DNA from: Ascidia mentula
Lineage: Eukaryota; Chordata; Ascidiacea; Phlebobranchia; Ascidiidae
Assembly: GCA_947561715.1 (NCBI GenBank)
Contig: OX387202.1
Span: 19,543,001-19,607,000 of the forward strand
DNA: 64,000 bases
Direction: 5' to 3'
Positions 96 to 18,700 of the stretch are shown piece after piece; position 1 is the first letter of the stretch; each line of letters opens with the position of its first letter. The position numbers and the translations under genes are program-made. The notes beneath the pieces are model-generated. The model did not search any database. It was not told where the DNA came from and saw nothing but the letters and a program-made list of their open reading frames with translations.

Positions 96-1023
96 TTTTA
101 TAAGCCTAAAAACAGTGCGACTCAAAAATCATTTTATTTTGTGCCAACAGATAATGCAAAGCATGTTTATGTCTGGCGTTGACCAAAACTGATTTTGTAA
201 CAAAAAAATTGCATGGTTTGTAAAAGAAGTCAATAGAACCAATTAATCATTGAAACACGCCAGGTATACGTACTGGCTTCCAACCTTTTGGCGTTCTTGT
301 TTCCAAATTGAAGGTACGCCTTCACCACTTTTGACAACAATAATGATTTGTTTGATGAAAAAACAGAAAACATCAGAAATGTTGCTTTCCCAACTGATCA
401 CGTGGTGTATGGGAAAACCCCAGATGTGAACTCTAAACCGAAACATGCAGCTTATACACAAAAATATTGTTTCAATAATTCGGCCAAGTGTGTTTCACGT
501 GTTATTCAACAAAACGCAAGTTTTGTCAAAGAGCTCCCAAAAATGTTTTTCAAGCCCAAGTATTATGCAGGAGGGGGCGAATAAGGCGTTCGCCCTCCAA
601 GAATATGATTTGGTTTGGTCGTAAGATTGATTTTCGTTGGTCACTGCTTTGTCTGGCGCATGCATCTTCCGGCCAAACGACCAAAAATCGCTATTTCTGC
701 GTTACAATAAGTTTTCGGTCGTAAGCAGTTCATAGCAACTACTTTTTTCAAGCCTTAGACCTGATTCCACCCCTATTTTTGAAATCGGGCTTTTGAAAAT
801 TTGTCCGAATTGCTGTGCGCCGAAGAAATCAACATCGCCCAGCTCAATTGTTTGTGCCTTTGTTAGGATTCTTTATGGCAAAATTTATTGGCAGTTTGGA
901 ATTTTACGACAAAGAGATTTTTCCCCAACCCTATTGCTCTGTTTCTCCGGCGCAAAATGTAAAACGACACGCGACAGTCGTGATGCGACATGGAATGTTG
1001 GCAAAACCGCGGCTTGGTAGAAT
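96..1023. other. Intergenic segment between the TRMT1-like gene and the MULE insertion
   Basis: No exon with convincing splice sites and coding character was found. Before the transposon inserted, this segment and 11563-12744 would have formed one short divergent intergenic region of about 2 kb, so it probably holds the TRMT1-like promoter and 5' UTR and perhaps part of the LLGL promoter. Short open frames here look random. Confidence 0.5.
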
Positions 1024-1032
1024 CTAAAAGAG
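1024..1032. repeat. 9-bp target-site duplication, left copy
   Basis: CTAAAAGAG lies immediately before the left terminal inverted repeat and is repeated exactly at 11554-11562 just after the right terminus. A 9-bp duplication fits the 8-10 bp (usually 9) made by Mutator-like elements. Confidence 0.93.
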
Positions 1033-1187
1033 GGTAGATACATTGACCACATAACGGGGGCATCGACGCAAACCAGATTATGACGTCACAATCGCTTTTA
1101 ACAATGGACAAGGTTGTGCGTGCGTCAAATGTGCGTGAAGTGCGCTGTAGTCTGAAACGTGTCAACTGAACCGTGAATGTTTTGAAG
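1033..1187 (+). repeat. Left terminal inverted repeat, unique portion (155 bp)
   Basis: Identical base for base, by eye, to the reverse complement of 11399-11553. The sequence is non-repetitive and contains a TGACGTCA palindrome (CRE-like) about 50 bp from the end, which may be incidental because TGACGTCA is frequent in this window. It likely carries the terminal transposase site. Confidence 0.92.
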
Positions 1188-2656
1188 CATTAAATACTCT
1201 AATGTGGGTTGGGCCTAGATTTCAGTTATGGTGTAGCATGGAAGCATTAAATACTCTAATGTGGGTTGGGCCTAGATTTCAGTTATGGTGTAGTCTGGAA
1301 GTATTAAATACTCTAATGTGGGTTGGGCCTAGATTTCAGTTATGGTGTAGCATGGAAGTATTAAATACTCTAATGTGGGTTGGGCCTAGATTTCAGTTAT
1401 GGTGTAGTCTGGAAGTATTAAATACTCTAATGTGGGTTGGGCCTAGATTTCAGTTATGGTGTAGTCTGGAAGCATTAAATACTCTAATGTGGGTTGGGCC
1501 TAGATTTCAATTATGGTGTAGTCTGGAAGCATTAAATACTCTAATGTGGGTTGGGCCTAGATTTCAGTGATGGTGTAGCGTGGAAGCATTAAATACTCTA
1601 ATGTGGGTTGGGCCCAGATTTCAGTTATGGTGTAGCGTGGAAGCATTAAATACTCTAATGTGGGTTGGGCCCAGATTTCAGTTATGGTGTAGCATGGAAG
1701 TATTAAATACTCTAATGTGGGTTGGGCCTAGATTTCAGTTATGGTGTAGCGTGGAAGCATTAAATACTCTAATGTGGGTTGGGCCCAGATTTCAGTTATG
1801 GTGTAGCATGGAAGTATTAAATACTCTAATGTGGGTTGGGCCTACATTTCAGTGATGGTGTAGCGTGGAAGCATTAAATACTCTAATGTGGGTTGGGCCC
1901 AGATTTCAGTTATGGTGTAGCGTGGAAGCATTGAATACTCTAATGTGGGTTGGGCCCAGATTTCAGTTATGGTGTAGCGTGGAAGCATTAAATACTCTAA
2001 TGTGGGTTGGGCCTAGATTTCAGTTATGGTGTAGCGTGGAAGCATTAAATACTCTAATGTGGGTTGGGCCCAGATTTCAGTTATGGTGTAGCATGGAAGT
2101 ATTAAATACTCTAATGTGGGTTGGGCCTAGATTTCAGTTATGGTGTAGCGTGGAAGCATTAAATACTCTAATGTGGTTTGGGCCTAGATTTCAGTTATGG
2201 TGTAGTCTGGAAGTATTAAATACTCTAATGTGGGTTGGGCCTGGATTTCATTTATGGTGTAGCGTGGAAGCATTAAATACTCTAATGTGGGTTGGGCCTG
2301 GATTTCAGTTATGGTGTAGCGTGGAAGCATTAAATACTCTAATGTGGGTTGGGCCTAGATTTCAGTGATGGTGTAGCGTGGAAGCATTAAATACTCTAAT
2401 GTGGGTTGGGCCCAGATTTCAGTTATGGTGTAGCGTGGAAGCATTAAATACTCTAATGTGGGTTGGGCCCAGATTTCAGTTATGGTGTAGCGTGGAAGCA
2501 TTAAATACTGTAATGCGGGTTGGGCCCAGATTTCGGTTATGGTGTAGCGTGGAAGCATTAAATACTCTAATGCGGGTTGGGCCCAGATTTCGGTTATGGT
2601 GTAGTCTGGAAGCATTAAATACTCTAATGTGGTTTGGGCCTAGATTTCAGTTATAG
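1188..2656 (+). repeat. 57-bp tandem array in the left arm (about 26 units)
   Basis: The unit starts near GCATTAAATACTCTAATGTG, continues through GGGTTGGGCC and AGATTTCAG, and ends TTATGGTGTAGCGTGGAA. Units differ at a few positions (CCTAG/CCCAG/CCTGG, AGCGTGG/AGTCTGG/AGCATGG, GCATT/GTATT). Because 57 is 19 codons, a frame free of stops persists for long stretches on both strands (MWVGPRFQLWCSVEALNTL in one direction), interrupted only when a unit carries a stop. This is a period artefact, not a gene. The last units near 2500-2656 are the most diverged. The array is part of an extended inverted repeat with 9238-11398. Confidence 0.95.
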
Positions 2657-3745
2657 TGAAGCTTAATAACTTTATACTCTGTGGGTTGGTGTATGACTGG
2701 AACTATTATATTTTGGTTTTGCTTCGCTTACTTTGCACAAGCTCAGACCATCAGAATGAAGCATGTTGCCAATGTGTTTAGATCCATTAACATAATTTAG
2801 GTCATTCTATTTTGACTATGTTGGTTTCAACAAAAGACAAATGACATTTGAAGCGACAAGTCAAACAGAAGACACAAATCAAAAGGTTTGTTATGATTTT
2901 ATTAAAAAAAAACAATTTTAAATGCTACTTGAATTTCAGCTGAACATCTGCAATGCTTCTGTTGGAATATTACATCTGTGGAAATAAAGTATAATTTGAA
3001 TAAGGTAAGAATTACTGTTAAGTCTTTAAAGTTCATTTTGTGTGGTCCTTTTTACTCCTTCCCAAAAATGAAATTATTTTATATCATACTATGGATATGA
3101 TAGTGTCTGTCGTCATACTACAAAATATTTTCACTTCGTATATTGTTTACATTGGATTTAAAAAAATGGATATTCCTGTATGATTCTTGATTGATAAAAC
3201 AAAATTGTAACAAAGCTTTAACACTGCAGATTCTGCAAAGATAGAAGCCACCCTAAATAAGCTGCAAGAAACCAGATACAAATTTCCAAACATATTTTTT
3301 ACAAAGTTGAAATCTTTATAAAACACACTATCTCATGTTAAACAGCATTTGTGTTATATATATTGTTTTGTGTATGCTAATTGTGATGCAATAAACTGTT
3401 TCTGCCACTGCCAGACAATGCAAATTTAAATGAACTTCCTTTGGGCACAAACATTGCACTCTTTGTCACATGTCGCTACAAAAACGGTGCTATTTGTTTT
3501 GTAATCGATTTCTCTTTTTTATGGCGAACTAAGTGCATTTCAGGCTTTCCAAATAAATAATGTTTGCTTATATGTTGATGGACTGCATTTTTATGTTGTG
3601 TTTGAAAAATTCCTACCACGCCCAGGAGGCTTTTCCATGTGGTCGTTGGCATTTTTGATAACCCAGACGCCTCGCCAGTAGCCATATGAAACTGGGTTGA
3701 ACAACATAATACGTGTTGAAGAAAACACAATACTTAAATAGTATG
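2657..3745. other. Non-coding interior of the MULE, left side
   Basis: AT-rich with no coding exon that joins the transposase. On the plus strand, 2848-2888 opens an ATG frame followed by a possible GT-AG intron and a second exon ending in TAA at about 2980 that overlaps an AATAAA. This could be a tiny transcript of about 30 codons or chance. Nothing else is recognised. Confidence 0.4.
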
Positions 3746-4075
3746 GTCTTAAAATCACTCTGCAGAAGTGTTACACCTCTCAGGTTGAAGCCTGATTGGT
3801 CAGTTTTACCATCGCAAGGTATGGTATGAAATTCACTCTGCGAAAGTGTTACACCTCTCAGGTAGAGTCCCGATTGGTCAGGTTTACCATCACTCTACGA
3901 GTGTTACACCATTAGGGTCAAAACCCAAAGGTATGGTAGGAAATTCACTTCGCAGGAGTGTTACACCTCTCAGGTAGAGTCCCGATTGGTCAGGTTTACC
4001 GTCACTCCAAGAGTGTTACACCCTTTGGGCCAAAACCCAAAAGGTACGGTATTACATTCACTTTGCAGAAGTGAT
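3746..4075. repeat. Internal direct repeats in the MULE (period about 115 bp)
   Basis: The phrase GTGTTACACCTCTCAGGT occurs three times (near 3768, 3847, 3959), followed by GATTGGTCAG and TTTACC. A shorter GAGTGTTACACC form alternates with it, joined by GGGTCAAAACCCAAAGGTA-like text near 3915 and 4030. The block sits just downstream (3' side) of the transposase stop codon. Its role is unknown; it may be a decayed satellite or a 3' UTR feature. Confidence 0.7.
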
Positions 4076-4176
4076 AAAACTAAAAAAATTGGGACATTGT
4101 GGTTGTTATGGTATAGTGAATAAATTTCATTTGGCTTGTGTTCTTATTTGTTTAACAGATTGTAATGTTGTTTGAT

Positions 4177-7100
4177 TTACAATGTGCACACAAAATATTT
4201 ATCTTTTTTTGCTTGCTTCTCTGAAAAACCAACACACATGATGTGAAACCACTGTCCACATCGAGTGCACTCAATCCAAACTTTTTTCAGGGGATTGGCG
4301 CCTTCATCTCCACATACTTTACATGTCTCTATTTCATTTGTGCCTTGAAGACACTTGCCAGCAATTTCCCTTAACATTTCAAGTCTATAGCTGTAGGTAC
4401 AAACATTTTGCACAAGTTTTTCTCCAGTTGCCAGCCATTTTGCATACATACATATCATCACTCCACAGCTTGATCCATCTGGCTGTTTTGTTCTGTGTGG
4501 TATTTCCACAGTATTAATTTTCCAACCAAACTTTGTTGCCATTAGACAATTCACCATAGCTTTTGCAGTTTGAACATTGCTGTCTGTTTTTACACAAGGC
4601 ATTGCTACTGGGTCTATGTACAGCATTTTTCGACCAGGGATGTCAACTACAAGCAAAACCCAGTGGAAGCCTGAAGAGTTCCAAGGTATAAACAGTGTTT
4701 GTTTCCCTTGCAAATTTATCCCTTCCCAAACTTTTTTAATTGAAGCTTTTCTTTGTAATATTTGAGCCACTGTCGAACAAACATAAAGTGTGTGTTGGTG
4801 CACACCAGTTAATCGCCACAAGTAGCTGTTAATGACTTCATCATAAAGCCAACCAACATTAAATCTGCTGTCATGCTTTTTAAGCTCGCAAACTTCAGCT
4901 GGTGGCAATGCATCATCCAGAGATTTTAACTCCAACAAAGAAATTGAATGAGGGCCGTTTTTTAAAATTGTACCAGAAGCTTTGTAACCGGTAACATGGG
5001 CTGTGATGTTTTTTTGCATCATTGAGTGTTTGTTCCGAACAATATCCATACAAGCCTCACCAGAAGATTTATGTTGGTCACAGGCTTTTGCTGCCTGTGG
5101 GGTTGTTAATTTTACACTTTTCTTTGATCGAGGAAACAAAGTTGTTACTTGGTGCAGCGGCTGCATAAGGTTGGCAAATTGTCCAACCCGTGATGAAAAT
5201 GGATTGGGCTTTGGTCGCTTGCGGGGCAACTCATCATGGACAGTATTTTCAGAAGGTGTTGTTTTTCGCTTCCTTTTCAATGACTTAAGTTCTGGAGGTT
5301 GAGTAATTCTAAACCCAGAATCGTATGAACATGCTTTAGAAAACTTAGCCACCATGGCATTGCCATCAGAAATGCCTTCATCCAAAACCTGCTTGGAACT
5401 GACATCATATGAAAGGTCTATCAAATGCTTCATTAAATCAATAAACTTTTGATGGCTTTGTTTGCGATCTGAGGTTTTGTTGTCAGTACCGCAGGTTTTG
5501 TCGTCAGTTACAATGTTTTCAGGTTGAGAAATTGATTGGTTTGTGGAGGAATTCTTGATGTCTTGTGTTTTGACCACAGTATCACAAACAGTTTCAGCTG
5601 ACAATTTGTTCACAACAACCGGATCCAAAACCATGTAAACAGAATTGGAGTACCAATCTGGCAGACTATGCCATCCAACATCTGCATACTTGTTAAAAAT
5701 TGCAAACATGTGTTTGCATGGTAAAAAATTGTGTAAAAAATCATGACATGTACACTTTGGAAAATCTCTTTCAGTGCCAAATTTAATGGTGTATATTTCA
5801 GAAGAGGAACTGCTTAATACAGTGAACAAGTCCCCTTTTCTACATATAGAACTTGCCTGAATGTTTGTAGTTTCTCCGATACGTTTTATACAATGTTTTA
5901 CCAATTTTCTTGGTCGGTTTTGAAGAAAGCTGGGAACCTCAGCGTTGTAACTTCTGTAATTGCCAGAAGATCTCATGTTTTGTTGTTTGTATCTGCTCAA
6001 AGTAAAATTTATTGATTAATTTTGATTGCATGTTCTTGCATATAACCATAAATGTTTTAGTGGAGGTACACTCACTTCTCATATGCATTTGGCAAAAATT
6101 CGTGGTGCAAAATTGTAATTAAGCCAGAAAGCGACTTATCAGTCCGAAATCGCACATGGCATTCTTTTAAAACTCGGTTTTGTCTCTCAACACCATTGTT
6201 GGTGCGGATCAAAACCTTTAACTGGTCTGCTCGATAGAGCCACATCCAACGCTAGAAAACGTGCATGAACAGAAGTTACATTTAACATATATGTTTTGTA
6301 AATACTCAAACCTCTTTATCCTTAAGCCAAATATTTGTGAAGTATTTTTGTAGTTTTGGGTTGTTTTCCCAAACTGAACTTGACTCAAATATCTGCAGTG
6401 CATTGTTGCAGCTTTTTTCACATTCAGCGTTAGCAATTCCTCTCATAAATGTCAAAACTTTGTCCTTGTCTGGACCTACTTGGTTTTCAGATTTTTTAAC
6501 CCATCTTTCCCATGCCTGTTCACGATGAAAATCGCAAATGAGGACACGGACATCTAGAAAATAGTTATTTTTACATATGTGGTACATGTATATTTGATGC
6601 AGAACTTTAACCTGTAAAAATGCTTTCAATGGCATGGATCTCAGCATCACATTTATCTACCATAAAAAATGATGGTTGCCATGCAGGAGTCCATTCTTTC
6701 AATATTTTCAGTGCCTCTTCAATGTCCAATTGTCTTTCATTCTGTGTAATGAAACTGGCAACAACTTGATAGCCAACATTTGTCTTCACACAGAGAAAAA
6801 ACAATGGGAGAGCATATTTGGATGTCTTGTAGGTAGCATCCATTAGACAAATGTCTTGGCCGTAGCGCAGAAGCAATCTACGCTGCCATGCAAACTGATG
6901 GATAAACAGCATGGTTTGTTCAGATTGAATGACTGGTGCTGTTTCTCCATCAACTACTTCAGGTTCCATGTTAGCAATGAATGGCCGGAAATATATTTTG
7001 TCATTGGCATCTCCTGCCTTCACCCATTCATCCACCAAGCACTGGACATTAGTTTGATCAATTTTTGCAAATCTGTGTTTACAAAATACTCGGTAATAAT

Positions 7101-9166
7101 GACTTTGAATGTCCTTTTTTGTTGGATAAAATCTCCTGTTTGAAGTAGATGGTGGGGTATCATTTTGAAAAAGTTCATGGGCAACATAATGTTTTAGGCT
7201 TCTAAGAATTTCCTCAATACTGCATACACCTTCTGTAACCAATTGATCTATTTTGGCAATTATTCTTTGATCAACAGGTTGAAGGAAACCAGCAGCCTTA
7301 AAATATGTAATATGGTAAATAAACAGTTCAAAAGTAAACATTTAATTTAAATAACATTCTTACTTCCCCTAAAACATGACCGGTGTGGTCATCCTGAGAT
7401 GGAAAGCAAACACTGTAAGTTTGTTGCTTTAGCAAGTGCTTATCGTTGTTTTGCAGCAAATCTTTTACAACAACACTTGTCTTGTCCATTTTAGATTTAC
7501 ATTTCGAGATTATCTAATCATATTACAGAAGAAATTATTGATATCCAACTAAATAAAATTAGATTCAAACAAGTTGAAGAAGTACCTGAAACTGTGGAAA
7601 CTTCATAATTTCCTGAATTACAATTTTTGCCTTGCAGTTAGTTTTTTTGGTCCCTTGAATACACAAATGTTTTTTGCAAGGATTTGGATGATCTTGCAAC
7701 TGATCAAAGGGGTTTCAATATTTTATCATAGAAAACATAAAGTCACTTACATGTGTAGGTGGTGCAACATGACGCCTTTCATTTTTAATCTTGTTGCGAT
7801 CTTTAGAATGTTGGCATTCCAAGACCTTTGTTTGTACTATGATGTAGGGAGTGGATGTACTGTCCCAATGCAAGCGACCTATTAAAATATCTAAAAAAAA
7901 TCACAAATGTAATCAGTTTGTATTGTCATACAATTATGGCTTGATGAACTTTCTTTTAATAAGTAAAACTAAGCTAAAAAGCAGGCCTTTTTTTATCATA
8001 CCAAATGAATTCTTCGAGAAATGAATGAACTTTGTCAATGTGGAGATTTCAAATTTCTCAACTAAATCATTTGCCTGAGTCATTGAACAAGCCCACTGCA
8101 ACAATTGTTGGATTTACTCTAAACTTAAATTTATAAACTGCACCAATTACCAGTCTTATATTACCTGCAAATTTTGTTTGCTATTCTCCTTTGCTGCTTC
8201 TGATATATTTTGCTAAAATAAACAACCACACATATGCACAAAGCATTGTGTTAAGCTATACAATTTACTAACCATTTTAGTTAAACAAGTGAATTCGTTC
8301 TTCACAAACTTCACAAAATATCTCTCTTCCTGTTGTAAACCTGCACCTTGGCTATTAAGGCTTTCTCTTATTGTTTTGCTTGCCTTTTCAAGATTGTATT
8401 TTGATAGCTTGTTCTGTGCCCAAGACATTAATGTAATGATAGTTAATAACATTTAAATGCATACTTACTAAGCCTTCAAACTTTGCAAACACCAAAACAT
8501 CAAAGATGGTTATTACATATTGATATAGTTTGTTTGGTTCAGATTGGCGGTCAAAATGCCAAAGTGATTCAAAGCACTCTGAACGTGTAATTATGTATGG
8601 TATGGCAGCATCATTCCAATGCACTGAGCTTTTACATGCATCTTCAAACGTAAAAAGAGGTTTCGAAAAAAAAAAACTTTTTGAATTGATGCAGCATATT
8701 TGTTGCTTCATGTTTGGATCCATACCACTAATAAATAAAAGCACAAATGAAATACTTCCATAATACAACAAAAACATGTTCATGTGCCTGAACATAGAAC
8801 TTTTATTACTACTTAACAGATTCTTAGACCAATTTGTGACAATGCAAGTTTCATTCTTTAATATTCACAGCGTAATAACTAACCTTCTCCAGAGTATTTG
8901 AGAATGTAAATTCCTTCTCACCGAATGCCACTTCATTTAGGATGCTAAAGCAAGTATTAAAATAGTTTTTAGGATTTAGAAAAGTTTTACATCTTACCAA
9001 TGTTGAACAATATCTTCAGAGATTAATAAATTTTTTGGCATTGGCACACAATTTCGAAATTGCCTAGACTCATGAGAGTCAACAACATCTTTCAAAAGAT
9101 TGAAACTTCTTTTACAAAAAAACATCTCTTCGCACAAAATCAATTCGATTTTTAGCAGAACAGAAC
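4177..9166 (-). CDS. MULE transposase with SWIM, Ulp1-like protease and PHD-like domains (13 exons)
   Basis: Exons read by phase: 9166-8998, 8944-8884, 8727-8469, 8413-8273, 8212-8165, 8095-8002, 7890-7751, 7699-7586, 7513-7364, 7296-6612, 6553-6312, 6251-6076, 5995-4177; about 1,360 codons. The N-terminal part is unrecognised. The exons at 7890-7586 hold a Cys/His-rich stretch resembling the CARF (ALS2CR8) DNA-binding region. The transposase core shows the first Asp in LMDATYKT, the second in FMVDKCDAEI, and RTNNGVERQNR later. A SWIM finger follows (CTCHDFLHNFLPCKH), then a C48/Ulp1 protease with H in SGFHWVLL, D in LYIDP and C in DGSSCGVM. The C-terminal PHD-like motif (CKVCGDEG...CTRCGQWFHIMC) stops just short of its last expected Cys. 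Exon 8727-8469 contains a run of 11 A (plus strand, about 8666-8676); in the phase set by upstream exons the frame closes soon after this run, while the downstream exons need a one-base different length. The true start codon is uncertain. Confidence 0.82.
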
Positions 9167-9237
9167 CTAAATAAACAATAAATACAAATGGTCACTACAA
9201 ATAAACCAAATTAAAGTAATTTCTATTTTACACATAA

Positions 9238-11398
9238 AGCTTCCAGGCTACACCATAACTGAAATCTAGGCCCAACCCACATTAGAGTATTTAATGCTTC
9301 CACGCTACACCATAACTGAAATCTAGGCCCAACCCGCATTAGAGTATTTAATGCTTCCACGCTACACCATCACTGAAATCTGGGCCCAACCCACATTAGA
9401 GTATTTAATGCTTCCACGCTACACCATAACTGAAATCTGGGCCCAACCCACATTAGAGTATTTAATGCTTCCACGCTGCACCATAACTGAAATCCAGGCC
9501 CAACCCACATTAGAGTATTTAATACTTCCAGACTACACCATAACTGAAATCTAGGCCCAAACCATATTAGAGTATTTAATGCTTCCACGCTACACCATAA
9601 CTGAAATCTAGGCCCAACCCACATTAGAGTATTTAATGCTTCCAGACTACACCATAACTGAAATCTAGGCCCAACCCACATTAGAGTATTTAATACTTCC
9701 ATGCTACACCATAACTGAAATCTAGGCCCAACCCACATTAGAGTATTTAATGCTTCCACGCTACACCATAACTGAAATCTAGGCCCAACCCACATTAGAG
9801 TATTTAATGCTTCCACGCTACACCATAACTGAAATCTGGGCCCAACCCACATTACAGTATTTAATGCTTCCACGCTACACCATCACTGAAATCTAGGCCC
9901 AACCCACATTAGAGTATTTAATGCTTCCAGACTACACCATAACTGAAATCTAGGCCCAACCCACATTAGAGTATTTAATGCTTCCATGCTACACCATAAC
10001 TGAAATCCAGACCCAACCCACATTAGAGTATTTAATGCTTCCACGCTACACCATAACTGAAATCTAGGCCCAACCCACATTAGAGTATTTAATGCTTCCA
10101 CGCTACACCATCACTGAAATCTAGGCCCAACCCACATTAGAGTATTTAATGCTTCCAGACTACACCATAACTGAAATCTAGGCCCAACCCACATTAGAGT
10201 ATTTAATGCTTCCACGCTACACCATAACTGAAATCTGGGCCCAACCCACATTAGAGTATTTAATGCTTCCACGCTACACCATAACTGAAATCTAGGCCCA
10301 ACCCACATTAGAGTATTTAATGCTTCCAGACTACACCATAACTGAAATCTAGGCCCAACCCACATTAGAGTATTTAATACTTCCACGCTACACCATAACT
10401 GAAATCTGGGACCAACCCACATTAGAGTATTTAATGCTTCCAGACTACACCATAACTGAAATCCAGGCCCAACCCACATTAGAGTATTTAATGCTTCCAC
10501 GCTACACCATAACTGAAATCTAGGCCCAACCCACATTAGAGTATTTAATGCTTCCACGCTACACCATAAATGAAATCTAGGCCCAACCCACATTAGAGTA
10601 TTTAATGCTTCCAGACTACACCATAACTGAAATCTAGGCCCAACCCACATTAGAGTATTTAATGCTTCCACGCTACACCATAACTGAAATCTAGGCCCAA
10701 CCCACATTAGAGTATTTAATGCTTCCACGCTACACCATAAATGAAATCCAGGCCCAACCCACATTAGAGTATTTAATACTTCCAGACTACACCATAACTG
10801 AAATCTAGGCCCAACCCACATTAGAGTATTTAATGCTTCCACGCTACACCATAAATGAAATCCAGGCCCAACCCACATTAGAGTATTTAATGCTTCCACG
10901 CTACACCATAACTGAAATCCAGGCCCAACCCACATTAGAGTATTTAATGCTTCCACGCTACACCATAACTGAAATCTAGGCCCAACCCACATTAGAGTAT
11001 TTAATACTTCCAGACTACACCATAACTGAAATCTAGGCCCAACCCACATTAGAGTATTTACTGCTTCCACGCTACACCATAAATGAAATCCAGGCCCAAC
11101 CCACATTAGAGTATTTAATACTTCCAGACTACACCATAACTGAAATCTAGGCCCAACCCACATTAGAGTATTTAATGCTTCCACGCTACACCATAACTGA
11201 AATCTAGGCCCAACCCACATTAGAGTATTTAAATACTTCCATGCTACACCATAACTGAAATCTAGGCCCAACCCACATTACAGTATTTAATGCTTCCACG
11301 CTACACCATAACTGAAATCTGGGCCCAACCCACATTAGAGTATTTAATGCTTCCAGACTACACCATAAATGAAATCTGGGCCCAACCCACATTATATT
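9238..11398 (-). repeat. 57-bp tandem array in the right arm (about 38 units)
   Basis: Same 57-bp unit as the left arm in opposite orientation. The array is about 700 bp longer than its partner, so the two arms have changed copy number independently even though the outer 155 bp remain identical. Open frames across it are again a consequence of the 3n period. Unit variants are interspersed rather than sorted, as expected from unequal exchange or slippage. Confidence 0.95.
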
Positions 11399-11553
11399 CT
11401 TCAAAACATTCACGGTTCAGTTGACACGTTTCAGACTACAGCGCACTTCACGCACATTTGACGCACGCACAACCTTGTCCATTGTTAAAAGCGATTGTGA
11501 CGTCATAATCTGGTTTGCGTCGATGCCCCCGTTATGTGGTCAATGTATCTACC
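11399..11553 (-). repeat. Right terminal inverted repeat, unique portion (155 bp)
   Basis: Exact inverted copy of 1033-1187. Divergence begins only where the arrays start: the left goes straight into the repeat consensus, while the right has a short variant junction before its first unit. Confidence 0.92.
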
Positions 11554-11562
11554 CTAAAAGAG
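11554..11562. repeat. 9-bp target-site duplication, right copy
   Basis: Exact copy of CTAAAAGAG found at 1024-1032. The perfect match brackets the whole 10.5 kb element and indicates a fairly recent insertion of the intact unit. Confidence 0.93.
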
Positions 11563-12744
11563 GAGGTCACCGCCCAAACTGATACTGTTTCGTTTTGTTT
11601 ATCTTTTATACAAGGACTTATTGTTGAAAACATGGTTTGTGCTTAGTTGTATAAGGATGTTCGTTTAGAAGCTAAGTTTAATGACGATTGTGTTTATGTT
11701 TTTACAAAGGTTTGTTAATTTTTGTGTAAGTAAAGCTCTGTGAAAATCAACATATTAGTTTTTTTATCCATTTACTTTCAGAAATAAACAAAACTTTTGT
11801 TTTGTGTTTTTAAAATTTTGTCATAAATCTAAATTAAAATTAATTAGCAAAAGTTTTGTGAATAAATCAAATGAGTGATAATGGTTTTTGCCAACATTGT
11901 TGTAATTTTATCGGCAATCAGCACATAAATATAAAATGATGCATTAACACATAAAAAGTGTTTGTTCATTGCCTTCCATTGTTTCCAAAAAATATCCTCA
12001 ATGCAAATTACAAACTTTCCAATCTACCTTGCAAAGACTCGTAACAAATGATTTTTAAAAATTTGCTGCCATCGCCAAATCTGGGGAATTGCCCTTTGGT
12101 GTCGGGCATTTTCAGGTTTTAAAAAATATTTTTTGTCGGTCATAAAACACATGTTAATTAATGATGCTTTAATGTGAGAAGGTAACGCAATGATTGTGTG
12201 ATTCGATAAGTATTCAGAGTGACACAAATCATGATCTTCCCACCCGGCAGTGAGAAAATTATTGATCCTAATAATTTTTTAACTTAGTTTTTACTAGAAT
12301 GCTTGTTGTTTCACTGATTTCTATGTTTTAATTTGAATGCACTAACGGCAAGCATTTAAAATCGGTGAAAAAATGTTTGTGAATTTTGTGTATTAAGGAA
12401 TATTCATGGGGAAATTAAAGGTAATGATGTCTTGAGCTTGTAGTTCTCATGCATTATTATTAATTATTGATGATTTCTTGCTTTTAACATTCCATTTTCT
12501 GGAAGTCCTGTGTAACGGTCAAGGTTTATTGGTTTCAAGCACCGACTTTATTATTTCAACAAGAAACTGGTTGTCTTTGTTGTTGATTTCTCCAATTTAC
12601 TTCCAGATATATATTTTACACTATCTGTTTTAATCATATCTTTATTTGAATGTTTGTTTGTTCTTCTATAGATCAGCATTTTTAGATGTTAGGTGTTATG
12701 CTACTTGTGTTTAAACTCTGCAACACCTGACCCTCAGCACAGCC
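11563..12744 (+). other. LLGL 5' region
   Basis: No coding exon is recognised. A plausible 3' splice site (TTCTTCTATAG) at about 12672 lies upstream of the LLGL ATG and could join a non-coding first exon, or accept a spliced leader if this is Ciona, where trans-splicing is common. AT-rich otherwise. Confidence 0.45.
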
Positions 12745-15700
12745 ATGTTCCGCAAGTGGAAAAAAGGAGGCCATCTTGACCCACAGAGAGAGAAAATAAA
12801 AAGTGAACTTTTTACTTTCAAAAAGGTTTGTTACATATACTGTTAGACTGGTTTAATCTTTAATCAAGATACAGTGACATGTAAAATCAATCAACCTCGT
12901 ATCTTTTGAGACTGATTAGTTGGCCAGACCAGTTATCTTGTAGGTGTCATATTTAACATTGAACTTTTCAACTTAAATTACTTCCTTTAGCAAGGGTATG
13001 AATAGTTTACAATTTAGTCAGTATGTCATTTTTTTCGAAGTTTATAATTATTTACTATATTTTGTTTTTTTGCAGACAGTCGAACATGGATTTCCGCACC
13101 ATCCATGTGCGTTTGCTTATGACCCTGTTCTAAAACTTATGGCAATTGGCACCAAAACTGGTGCTGTAAAAATGTAAGGATGTCTTTTTGAACATTTTTA
13201 CACAAACACAAACAACATTGCACTTCAGTATAGTGAATATTATGTTTTAATATGCATTTTTATTTATCTTGGCAATGCATTCTAGTGCAAATTAGGATAC
13301 TTGATTAAAATTACCTTTGAACAATTAGGATTAAGAAGTGCTTAAACATGTCCAAGAATATATTTCACAACATGAAGCTCAAATGCCAAACACAATTAAT
13401 GTGCTTGCTACAAGCAAAAATTTAAGTCACATTGCTTTAAAAACTATTGTCTAGATTTGGATCACCAGGTGTGGAATTCACAGGGATTCATTCCGACATA
13501 AATCAAGTTCTCCAGCTGCACTTTGTACCTGGCGAGGTAAGCTGAATTTATTGATGAAAGTTTAAAATCACTTCTTAAATTTTAAAACGCTGCTGAGTAG
13601 ATTGAGTCAATCTTTTTAATCGCATCTAACCATAGTAGTTTGACCATAGTTTTTGTGCAGTATTTATATAATAAGTTGTTATTCATGCAGGGGCGAATCA
13701 TTAGCATATTAGACGACAACACGATCCATCTATGGGAGCTCTGTTCTGTTAAGGAAGATAAGCAAGGTGCTCAGGGTCTTGTGGAAGTTGGAGCTTCACA
13801 GCTATCCGGTCGTCCAGGGTAAAAAATATTCATTTTGTAACATGGGCAAAACATTCGCTTGATGTGTAAGACTGATTCCTTAACAGATTCTAGACCTTAA
13901 TTTGGCATTGTCCTCATGCCAGCTACACCAATGTATTAAGATCTGAATTACTGTGGAACAGTTTGTTTCAACAATTAAATTTACATGATATGTGCATCAC
14001 TAAGGGCACCAATGATCCCTCCAGGATTGACAAATAAAGTTTCCCTTTGATGATTTGAATGTTTCTTTGACTTCTTAATTCAGTTTATACTTTCAAACTT
14101 TTGTCTGTGCTCTGTGGGTATGAAGTCAATCATGTTGTATTTGTCAGGACCAACCAAATCACTGTGGTTACAATACAATCCGGCAATGAACTGATGTGGG
14201 TTGGCACAGAAGGTGGAGGAATATACACTCTCACACTACCAGAGTTTGAAATGAAAGAAACCATCCATCAAGATCAAGTCATGCAGAGGTTCGTTTATGG
14301 TCTTGTCTCTTGTAAAGATTGTGGTGCTGAAATATTGACTAGTGGCTGGAATTGTGCTGTTGTGCAAAAATACTTGGTGGAAGTTACATTGATGCAAATT
14401 CTTCATGGAATGCTCCACATATCAGGTGTTTGAAGCCACAGCTCTTGTTCACATGAGATTGCAATTTTACATAAAGACAAAGCCTCCTTGACTAATAATT
14501 TACCTTAGCATGTGGTTTGCATAAACATGTACTGCAGCATATATGTGTTGTTAACATTCTTCTTAACTTTTCAATTTGCCACAATATCCCCATGCATGCT
14601 GTGTAGTTGTTCCACAATCGGATGTGGACCCACTAATATAACAGACAAACTTTAAGTCCTGTTATTTGTGGTCAGCATTCCAGATCATTACAAGACTGGC
14701 AAAGCTCTTGGTCTGGTGGAAGCAATTGCAGAACACCCATCCAACCCCTCCCAAATACTTATCGGATATAATCGTGGACTTATTGTGCTTTGGGATGATG
14801 CAAGTCAAAGTGTCGGGAGTTTTTATCTTTCAGAGAAGGTCAGAAATAAATCGGTTATATGGAGTTGTGTAGAGTTTGTAATGTGGAAGGTTACATGACA
14901 TAAAAACAACTAATGATGCAGCATAGGGGTGATTTATTATTGGTGAACTTAAGTTGATTGATGCATATAAGTTTATTTTACTGATATATTTATTGATACG
15001 TATAATATACTCACAATTAATTGTGGGTGTAACTTTAGTTTAGCCAACAGAGTATATACATTATGTCATAACAATTTCTCTGCTGTAAGAAGCCCCACAT
15101 TATTAACTCCACAACAGAAACTACAACGCACAAAGGCTTTTGCATTTCACCATTCGGCAAATATTACTTTTACAAGTTTTCTGTCTCATAAAATACCTCC
15201 AATGATGTAACCAATATAATGGTTTTATGTCATTTGTGTAGTGAGTGTATTTGTATGGCGTACATGCCTTGCTACTGTACACAAGTATGGGTCTCCTGGA
15301 CACCATCCTGCCACCAATTGTTCACTGTTTAATTTGCACACAGGGATTGGAGTCAATTTCGTGGCTTTCTAATAGCAAGGAATTTATGAGTGCTCACACT
15401 GATGGATTTCTGTGCACATGGAGATTAGAATCCTCACAACCCCATACTTCATACACTCCCTATGGTAAGAGCAGTTAACTGACTGTGACATCCCATTATT
15501 TACATTCATTAATTAGTTTTACTGATTCTTTCACAGTTGCTTTGATCAGTGATATTGTTATGTTTCTGAATTTATTTATAAAAGTTTTACAATGCAAGTA
15601 AAAATTTCATCATAATTTTGTTTTTCAACACAGGCCCCTTCCCTTGCAAAGCCATCACCAAGATTTTATGGAAATCATCGAGGATGTAAGTTTTTTTTTG

Positions 15701-18700
15701 AAACATTTTGAAAACAACTTTATTTTTGCCTCTGGGATTTTGTGTGTTTTCCAAACAATACAACTAAAATGAATTAAAATTATGAACAGACTTGAAATGC
15801 ATTTCAATACATCTACTTATCAAACCAACCTGTATTTCTTGGCAGGGATCACTATCGGATATTCAGTGGTGGAATGCCACGTGCCAATTATGGAGATCGC
15901 CACTGTGTCAGTGTCATTCACGGTTCAAAGCATGTCACATTTGATTTTACATCACGCGTCATCGACTTCTTTGTAGTCTGTAAACATAAGTCAAATGCAG
16001 GTCAGTGCTCAGTATAAAGTATGTTAGAAAAATATGGCAAGTTTAAGGTCAAGTAAGGTTTTGCAAATTAGATGAACTTACCATGGTTACAGATTGGGAG
16101 GAACCAGAATTCCTGATAGTTTTGCTCGAGGAGGAATTGGTTGCGATCGATCTCACTCAGGACGAATGGCCTGGCATGATTCCCCCATACCTTGGATCTC
16201 CTCACGCTTCAGCGATCACATGTTCGGCACATACTGAGGATATCCCTGAAATGGTTTGGGAGAAGATTAAGATTGCCGCCAAGGCGATGAAAATTGGAAA
16301 ATCGGAATCTGTGAGTAGCAACTTTGTACTAAGAATTCAAGTGTCATGTGGTGGCTTAGCAAAGTAAGCATGCATTTATTTCCAATGCAATACGATAAAG
16401 AAGTTTAACCATTTCATATTTACAATACATTTCACTTTTAATTTTGGCTATTTAAGAATCTGCCACATTTGTAAATTACTAACCATAACCAAAATTGTGG
16501 CCAGTTTCAATGCTGGTTAATCAAATGAACCATGCATAAAATGTAAACCCACTTAAAAAAGTTCATGCCATCGAAAGGCCACAATTCTGGCTATTATAGG
16601 TGTTGTAAATATAGCTGGGCACTTAACATTGCCTCTTAACCAATATTTCAAGTGGTTTCTCGAGTAGCGACGAGTTTTGTGGACGTGGTATCTCACACAG
16701 GATGCAGCGATGCGGAAAGACACATGATTGATAAAAAATGTTTTTTTTAGACATGGCCAATTACTGGGGGAAAAGATCTGGTTAAAACTAAACCTTCATC
16801 GCACGATATTCTCCTTACAGGCCACGAGGACGGCTCCATTAAGGTGGGCTTTTATAATCGTGATGTTAAGTGTCCGAACACTCACAGTTCTATTACATAG
16901 GTTGTTTGAAATTATCACTAAACTTTACTGGGTTTATTTTTAATACAACCCTTTTACCCCAACAACCTGTGATGATTTAAAACCATAAATTTATTAATTG
17001 ACTTGCTTTAAAATTTAGTCACAGGCAAATATTCTGACTATAAACGATCTTTAAACAATTGCCGTTCACTTTTTTGTGTGGTTATGTTTATCATACATGG
17101 TTAATTCATCGAGGTAAACCATGTTAAATGTGCAGCTGTGGGATGTGTCAAATGTTTCAATGTATCCCATCCTCAAAATGCAAACCAACCAAGTTTTCGT
17201 CACCGACTCTGATGCAGGGAATGACGGAGATGGCTTCGAAGAACAGTTTCCCCCGTTTAGAAAGGTCATTAAATTTTCTTTTGCCAATCCTCGTTACTAC
17301 TTCTATTTAAATATTCACAACCGGGTCCTGTTTGTAAAAGCTTGTGATTTTGAACTGATCCTGCCCTTACAGATGTGAAACCCGCAGACCAGGTTGTTTA
17401 ACTCAATTGTATTTTTATGACAAGGTTGGTGAGTTTGACCCTTACAGCGACGATCCACGTCTTGCGATCCGAAAAGTTGCGATGTGTCCCACCACTGGAG
17501 CGCTGGTTGCCGGGGGAACAGCTGGTCAGGTACACAATTAATCTTTATATTTTCTTCAACTTTTTTCAGACAACTGACTTAATGCGACTTTTTAATGCAG
17601 AAAATGTTTATTTTGTTTGTGTTTCATTTTCAGCACACATCATTTTATATTTTTCAACTAACATATCCTGGTTACAATATGTTGTATGCCAATAACGAAA
17701 TGCTCGCCATTTTGTAAATACTGGTTACACATAAATAATGATTAATAATTGGAGTTTAATGTTTTAAGGTTGTCGTGTTTGTGCTTTCAAACGAAGGAAC
17801 CGAAACACTTGTCACAAGTAATCTGGTCGATATCCTTGAGGGAAGGGCGGACTTTACCTGGAAGGGCCACGGGCAACTCCAAACCAAGGACAACCACATA
17901 ACAATGCCACCAGGTAAAGTCAGTCCTGACTTAAATTCAGTTGAAGTTATTTGATAATGGGTTGTAACTTTCGAAATTACTTAGTTTCTTTGATATGATG
18001 TAATTAGTGACACTCACTAAGGCTTTCCTGAACATTTGCATCAGGTGGGTTGAGAACATTTAGTCATATTATAATATTTATCCTAATGTTCATGAATTAA
18101 CTCTGGTTCCCATGCTAGGTTACCAGGTTGCGACTGTTGTCCAGTGTCAACCTCCAGCAAGCATCACTTCGTTGAGTGTTTCGTCCAACTGGGGTTTGAT
18201 CGGGCTTGGAACTGGCCATGGGTTTGCGTTGTTTGATTACCTGCAGGTGAAGAACAACCTAATTCTAATTTTGTGCTGGTACTGGGATTGTTTAACCAAA
18301 TCCATATATTGACACAATTCCACTTTAAGTAAAACAAAGGGTGCTTGGAAGCTTGTGTTGGTATTCGTCTGAATGTGGACTGCAAGAATTCAAAATCAAC
18401 CAACTTATTTTGTGTTGACATGTGTTTGCCACTAATACTGAACATTAATTCAAATGTTATTGATTTTAAATTCAGAGATTGACCCCCTGGAAACATTGGG
18501 AACTGAAATTGTGAATTATTTTGGCAGAATAAGTCGGTTCTGTCCCGCTGCACACTAGAAGCTGGAGACCACGCAGCAATGGAAGGTCATTTCTCCAGGA
18601 TGAAGTCGATCAAGATGTCGCTCCGTCAATCGATGAGAAGGATCCGAGGAAGTTTTCATGGTGGAGGAAGAGGTTCTGTGAGGAGGAAGTCAGGAAGAAG

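Follow-up and report, generated by a model that had tools for sequence, protein, structure and literature searches.

What kind of transposon ends in long inverted arrays of tandem repeats, is it still mobile, and where do such ends come from? These questions are raised by a locus of the ascidian Ascidia mentula, in a window of 64,000 nucleotides (GenBank assembly GCA_947561715.1, contig OX387202.1, positions 19,543,001 to 19,607,000 of the forward strand; contig C70 in the following), in which positions 1033-11553 are occupied by a 10,521-bp DNA transposon. We refer to the family of this element as F1 and to its sister families in the same genome as F2, F3, and F4. Taken as a whole, the evidence is very probably best explained by F1 being a cut-and-paste transposon of the Rehavkus type that is autonomous or nearly so, was mobile recently, and has repeat-built arms that represent a non-coding module with fast turnover.

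The element is delimited by a 9-bp duplication that occurs in the whole window, on both strands, only at its two borders, and by inverted 155-bp ends of 100% identity. Inside these ends, Tandem Repeats Finder detected a 57-bp array and its reverse complement. The perfect duplication, the identical ends, and the mirror orientation of the repeats were thus found as the initial annotation had described them. Long inverted ends made of tandem repeats characterize the foldback class, and the window element has such ends:

1024-1032: left 9-bp target-site duplication, CTAAAAGAG
1033-1187, plus strand: left 155-bp terminal inverted repeat (3' side of the gene), starting with GGTAGATACATTG; ends of this kind delimit 15 paired elements
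1184-2662, plus strand: left minisatellite arm, 57-bp unit, 26 copies (25.9 by Tandem Repeats Finder)
3741-4073: short tandem repeats (78/112 bp), located between left arm and 3' end of the gene
9235-11394, minus strand: right minisatellite arm, 57-bp unit inverted, 38 copies (37.9 by Tandem Repeats Finder)
11399-11553, minus strand: right 155-bp terminal inverted repeat (5' side of the gene)
11554-11562: right 9-bp target-site duplication, CTAAAAGAG

The 155-bp end also contains the palindrome TGACGTCA (window 1081-1088, with a matching site in the right end), which we take to resemble a CRE/ATF-like site and which is possibly part of a promoter.

The Ascidia mentula assembly (195.8 Mb, 79 contigs) was searched for further copies. 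Its mitochondrial COX1 contains five in-frame TGA codons and, judged by the invariant glycines, reads regularly only if AGA/AGG are translated as glycine, as in the ascidian code. The terminal 26-mer had 38 genome matches with at most three mismatches, as compared to none for the reversed control, and 15 elements were paired from their ends; ends without a partner in the retrieved DNA were left out. Perfect 9-bp duplications flank ten of these elements, including the window element and the twin described below. The other five comprise two with exact 9 bp at an offset of one base, one with eight of nine bases, and two without a duplication, and swapping flanks between elements gave no perfect match in 210 combinations. 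The duplications that the initial annotation had proposed to look for at other copies are therefore present, and their length is within the approximately 8-11 bp of the Mutator-like element (MULE) superfamily. Paired elements range from 2,560 to 26,485 bp, and array copy numbers differ widely among them. Shortened derivatives with the same ends measure 2,560 bp (with a perfect duplication) and 3,310 and 6,330 bp (both without). Capture of host genes by long copies was considered and rejected, as the 26-kb copy owes its additional 14.3 kb to another transposon (F3). Seven other inserts were found in four copies, one of them with inverted ends AGCCCTGTTTACATG. Two ends on contig C52 (C52:19550901 and C52:19557113), separated by 6.2 kb, agree in orientation and in their 15 flanking bases, probably as a result of a local duplication that included an element end.

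Divergence of the interior from the window copy is zero in the twin, 0.3% in C2:6800721, 0.5-0.9% in four further copies, and 1.3-4.1% in the other eight, including two near-full ones at 1.5% and 3.7%. The twin (C70:20310847-20321367, reverse orientation) is identical to the window element across all 10,521 bp, is located 0.77 Mb away, and has different flanks with its own perfect duplication, CAAGTGCAC. Presence of a letter-identical copy at a different site suggests that the movement was very recent. This is also indicated by the identity of all 64 minisatellite units between the two copies, as arrays differ in the other copies examined, even in one with only 0.3% interior divergence. If mutation rates are assumed to be 3e-9 to 1e-8 per site and generation, the lack of any difference between the twins limits their age to about 48,000 to 14,000 generations. 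Transposition of F1 in Ascidia mentula thus seems to be very recent.

The interior encodes a gene on the minus strand. The initial annotation had regarded it as near-complete, and at the level of prediction this holds: seven exons can be joined in frame across GT-AG introns into a predicted product of 1,106 amino acids (aa), and further coding sequence on the 5' side is kept in F2. The predicted exons and the 5' part of the gene are as follows:

4177-5992, minus strand: last predicted exon, with SWIM (marginal), Ulp1 (C48), and PHD; stop codon at 4177-4179
6076-6251, minus strand: predicted exon containing NNGVERQN, in which the Glu is presumed to be catalytic (the motif reading is our assumption)
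6312-6553, minus strand: predicted exon that carries ICDFHRE, the C(2)H motif of the DDE domain
6612-7296, minus strand: predicted exon in which the CARF-like domain ends and the MULE DDE domain has its two presumed catalytic Asp (LMDATYK, FMVDKCDAE)
7364-7513, minus strand: predicted exon, CARF-like (PF15299) domain
7586-7699, minus strand: predicted exon, CARF-like domain
7751-7890, minus strand: predicted exon, CARF-like domain
7937-9089, minus strand: 5' part of the gene, with the stretches 9089-9027, 8647-8541, 8404-8291, and ~8107-7937 kept in F2

Pfam searches with the joined exons matched ALS2CR8/CARF (PF15299, 5.2e-36), the ZSWIM-type RNase H domain (PF21056, 3.6e-13), MULE (PF10551, 2.4e-11), the Ulp1 C48 protease (2.5e-09), and the PHD finger (PF00628, 5.1e-07, aa 1059-1105). 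The SWIM finger is marginal, with 19.1 bits in the joined exons (cut-off 19.6) and 21.3 bits in the open reading frame alone, and no FLYWCH domain was matched at E<=0.1 in nine single open reading frames or at 0.01 in the joined exons. The window element thus has the MULE-type RNase H DDE domain of the superfamily. The residues D, D, C(2)H, and E are visible in the window copy, and we presume that this motif represents the catalytic DDE residues; a search of solved structures with the DDE exon gave no match at E<=1. The last exon is open for 612 codons in five copies. These findings support the initial description of a MULE-type element that combines foldback ends with its own multi-domain transposase. 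The PHD-like fingers of F1 (window 4177-4320, YFVCTL-stop) and F3 (YFSCTKELTS) stop short of the final cysteine of what we take to be the canonical PHD pattern.

The DDE exon has 114 matches in the genome, and all 11 with at least 96% identity are in loci with a 155-bp end (ten in paired elements, one beside a single end). Among the 86 matches of the last exon, one fragment with 97% identity (C2:16587279) has its nearest known end at a distance of about 12 kb, and 96% fragments at C71:16402788-16404119 are located between two unpaired ends. More distant relatives of the gene (DDE exon 90% and less) do occur without F1 ends, and at least some of these less similar matches are from other families. 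The possibility raised initially, that the gene might occur throughout the genome without these ends, hence applies to the distant relatives and not to the close gene. Many matches of the transposase gene cluster at C1 14.6-15.2 Mb, C2 18.4-19.3 Mb, C52 9.3-9.6 and 13.4-14.2 Mb, and C71 14-16.4 Mb; these megabase-scale clusters are perhaps pericentromeric transposon graveyards. Beyond the insertion in the window is an LLGL/tomosyn-like gene (Pfam LLGL match at 16047-16364), the coding part of which, judged by eye, may start at a distance of about 1.4 kb from the element, near 12977.

We propose that the transposase would bind the 155-bp ends and excise the element, which would insert via a 9-bp staggered cut. 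The mirror-oriented minisatellite arms, which make F1 a foldback element, would most likely be a rapidly turning-over, non-coding module, and probably a repeated platform for a DNA-binding protein that is encoded by the element or by the host, comparable to VANC and VANDAL in Arabidopsis. VANDAL elements are likewise Mutator-like and have non-coding tandem repeats that turn over fast and bind the element-encoded VANC; unlike F1, they are plant elements, and VANC is an anti-silencing protein (PMC5735166, as far as covered here).

Among described groups, F1 is most likely filed with Rehavkus. Like Rehavkus-1_TC and Rehavkus-1_HR, it has a 9-bp duplication, ends (155 bp) within the described range of 26-400 bp, a PHD finger together with a MULE-like DDE domain (in one open reading frame in Rehavkus), and a minisatellite next to the 3' end (the array at 1184-2662), to which F1 adds a second, inverted array on the 5' side. 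The predicted F1 protein also has a Ulp1 protease; its likeness to Rehavkus was judged from the description of that group. In the portion of PMC6446971 used here, Rehavkus is tabled with the 9-bp duplication, PHD finger, and minisatellite, and its hosts are described as insects and annelids only, whereas F1 resides in a tunicate. Rehavkus-1_TC of Tribolium is 9.5 kb long and has satellite arrays with a 164-bp unit in its inverted termini (PMC10218199, excerpt). Elsewhere, Rehavkus is used as an outgroup (PMC13359780, excerpt) or lumped with Mutator (PMC4438587, excerpt).

The newer point of this analysis is that, in three further families of the same genome, a similar gene is accompanied on its 3' side by a minisatellite with an unrelated unit. 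The last exon of F2 is 57-58% identical to that of F1. F2 ends are 293 bp long and start with GGTAGATGC, and 9-bp duplications flank all five copies with ends read. The F2 copies are:

C67:8325067-8334751
C1:18867119-18875384
C52:13723955-13731760
two copies of about 2 kb

Both F2 copies read on the 3' side of the gene have a 104/105-bp minisatellite there (21 units on C67, 8 units on C1), and no minisatellite was present in about 1.9 kb of the 5' side at C1, the only 5' side read. F4 (C70:3.13 Mb) is closer to F1, with 90% identity in the DDE exon and 73% in the last exon, and its gene is followed on the 3' side by a minisatellite with a 97-bp unit. A genome search with this array gave 24 matches, which represent four gene-linked arrays and three short fragments. 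All four gene-linked arrays are at the 3' side of the gene and antisense to it, and the search found no inverted partner array on the 5' side (F4 ends were not read). F4 and F2 units hold, by eye, splice-like signals antisense to the gene (a tract and AG, 18-24 bases, then GTAAGT or GTGAGT), and the F2 unit also has a TACTAAT branch-like word; these signals could be due to chance or to a convergent second transcript.

F3 is a 14,292-bp element nested in the left array of the 26-kb F1 copy (C52:489639-516123, bases 590-14881). Its 42-bp minisatellites are in mirror orientation (149 and 47 copies). The F3 gene has Pfam matches to MULE (2.3e-07) and C48 (3.1e-07), a PHD match under the Pfam cut-off (9.4e-04, 19.6 bits, cut-off 24), and a SWIM-like motif recognized by eye. 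Insertion of F3 split a 57-bp unit, and a 24-base word over the restored joint recurs in six other elements and nine times in its own host element. The host array therefore serves as an empty site for F3, with a duplication of 8 or 9 bp.

All four families thus have a minisatellite 3' of the gene, with units of 57 (F1), 105 (F2), 42 (F3), and 97 bp (F4) that have no 9-base word in common, which suggests that the position was kept and not the sequence. Arrays were found on one side in F2 and F4 and on both sides in F1 and F3. Comparison of these relatives within one genome suggests that repeat-built ends change quickly. Most simply, a one-sided minisatellite may belong to the Rehavkus-type layout, from which foldback ends were elaborated secondarily and repeatedly; the arrays of F1 would then have started on the 3' side and come to occupy both sides. 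Amplification of a piece of the end as the source of the unit is supported for F3, in which the ends and the unit share short motifs far beyond chance, and is not supported for F1 and F2.

Two alternatives concern the recent mobility and the kinship of F1. The two identical copies could be due to segmental duplication, to homogenisation of their sequences, or to misassembly and not to recent transposition. In favor of this, both are on one contig, 0.77 Mb apart, and a repeat of 10.5 kb is long relative to HiFi reads. However, the flanks differ, the two copies are bounded on both sides by separate perfect 9-bp duplications, and none of the other copies examined has the array composition common to these two. 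A deletion private to the pair (see below) fits direct descent, and the quality value (QV) of 64.9 stated for assembly kaAscMent1.1 (PMC11109543, excerpt) is a further point against this alternative. We thus consider this explanation very unlikely. It is also improbable, albeit somewhat less so, that F1 is a Phantom-type MULE that gained foldback ends, as seen in Tm1, which is Phantom-like. The Phantom group of Dupeyron includes Tunicata among its hosts, has duplications of 8-10 bp, SWIM in some members, and a minisatellite after the transposase open reading frame in aphids. Yet in the table of PMC6446971, as far as covered here, Phantom is given with FLYWCH, SWIM, or no zinc finger, and the PHD finger is tabled for Rehavkus only. 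The F1 protein has a PHD finger and a marginal SWIM match and gave no FLYWCH match in the searches described above.

Several points weigh against the Rehavkus-type, recently mobile transposon that we favor. Filing with Rehavkus is by architecture, and Rehavkus was compared by description and not by sequence. Both the gene and its transposase activity are predictions from sequence, and the four 5' coding stretches, which a translated comparison found to be kept in F2, have provisional exon borders. The joined flanks of the window insertion (200 bases) match only their own two flanks in the assembly, i.e., no empty site was found there, and two of the 15 paired elements are without a duplication. 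Among the copies with this region, the window copy and its twin alone are without an 86-87-bp piece at ~8675. The whole piece is present in all eight other paired copies in which both sides of the spot are preserved, and part of it in a further paired copy and in a single-ended locus. This deletion is private to the twins and is located just upstream of a 5' coding stretch, by position probably in an intron; it could still matter. The arms of F1 have the unit in common and not the unit order: the longest inter-arm run of identical units is one in the window element and one to three in the other seven elements tested, never over the shuffle maximum. There is thus no trace of one arm having been copied whole from the other in these eight F1 elements. 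Word sharing of F1 and F2 units with their own ends is no higher than chance, so that the arrays need not be extra transposase sites. The kinship of F3 is based on architecture, as its DDE region has no significant similarity to that of F1, and F3 is accordingly distant. Each sister family is represented by no more than one to four copies here, and the direction from one-sided to two-sided arrays is a conditional reading, given these few copies, a single F2 5' side read, and F4 ends unread.

The arms could also be passive by-products without function, if slippage and unequal exchange amplify any sequence that is located inside the ends. Units without a common word among the four families, the scrambled unit order between arms, and the widely varying copy numbers would all be expected from such a process. 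The 3'-side array in each of the four families suggests a kept position and argues against it, although passive growth with a positional bias would still fit. We regard this alternative as a serious one, at somewhat less than even chances. A more far-reaching proposal is that a chordate lineage of Rehavkus-type MULEs keeps its 3' minisatellite at a fixed place while the sequence is swapped wholesale, as seen in the 57-bp and 97-bp units of F1 and F4 with DDE exons that are 90% identical. The array would act through being repeated and co-evolve with an element-encoded binding protein, and foldback ends would have arisen at least twice (F1, F3) by placing a mirror array at the other end of a one-sided layout. 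This joint proposal is tentative and, as a whole, rather doubtful.

Long inverted ends of tandem repeats are also known from Galileo, Tetris, and the Drosophila FB elements. Galileo has a P-element transposase, and the similarity of these ends to those of F1 is convergent and no sign of kinship. Closer to F1 is Tm1 of root-knot nematodes (Meloidogyne), a Mutator/Foldback family with MULE transposase, 9-bp duplications, and inverted ends of tandem repeats in variable number. Unlike F1, Tm1 is Phantom-like, its transposase-encoding element is 2,593 bp long with units of about 14 bp, it was judged inactive by its authors, and the excerpt used here names no PHD or Ulp1 domain (PMC3169594). The combination of features that the initial annotation considered unusual for an animal genome is therefore not new, as Mutator elements with foldback ends were already published with Tm1 (PMC3169594) and Rehavkus-1_TC, the arrays of which are in inverted termini (PMC10218199), and to call F1 a new kind would be too strong. 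In the open-licence literature, a search scope that excludes Repbase, we found no description of F1 or of Rehavkus in a tunicate. Of the two possibilities considered initially, a new family or an undescribed full-length copy, the first most likely holds, with F1 as a new family within a kind that was already known.

F1 extends Rehavkus-like elements to a chordate and, through its two identical copies, provides a family that was mobile recently. As four families in one genome differ in having one-sided or two-sided arrays, the origin of foldback ends becomes open to comparative study.

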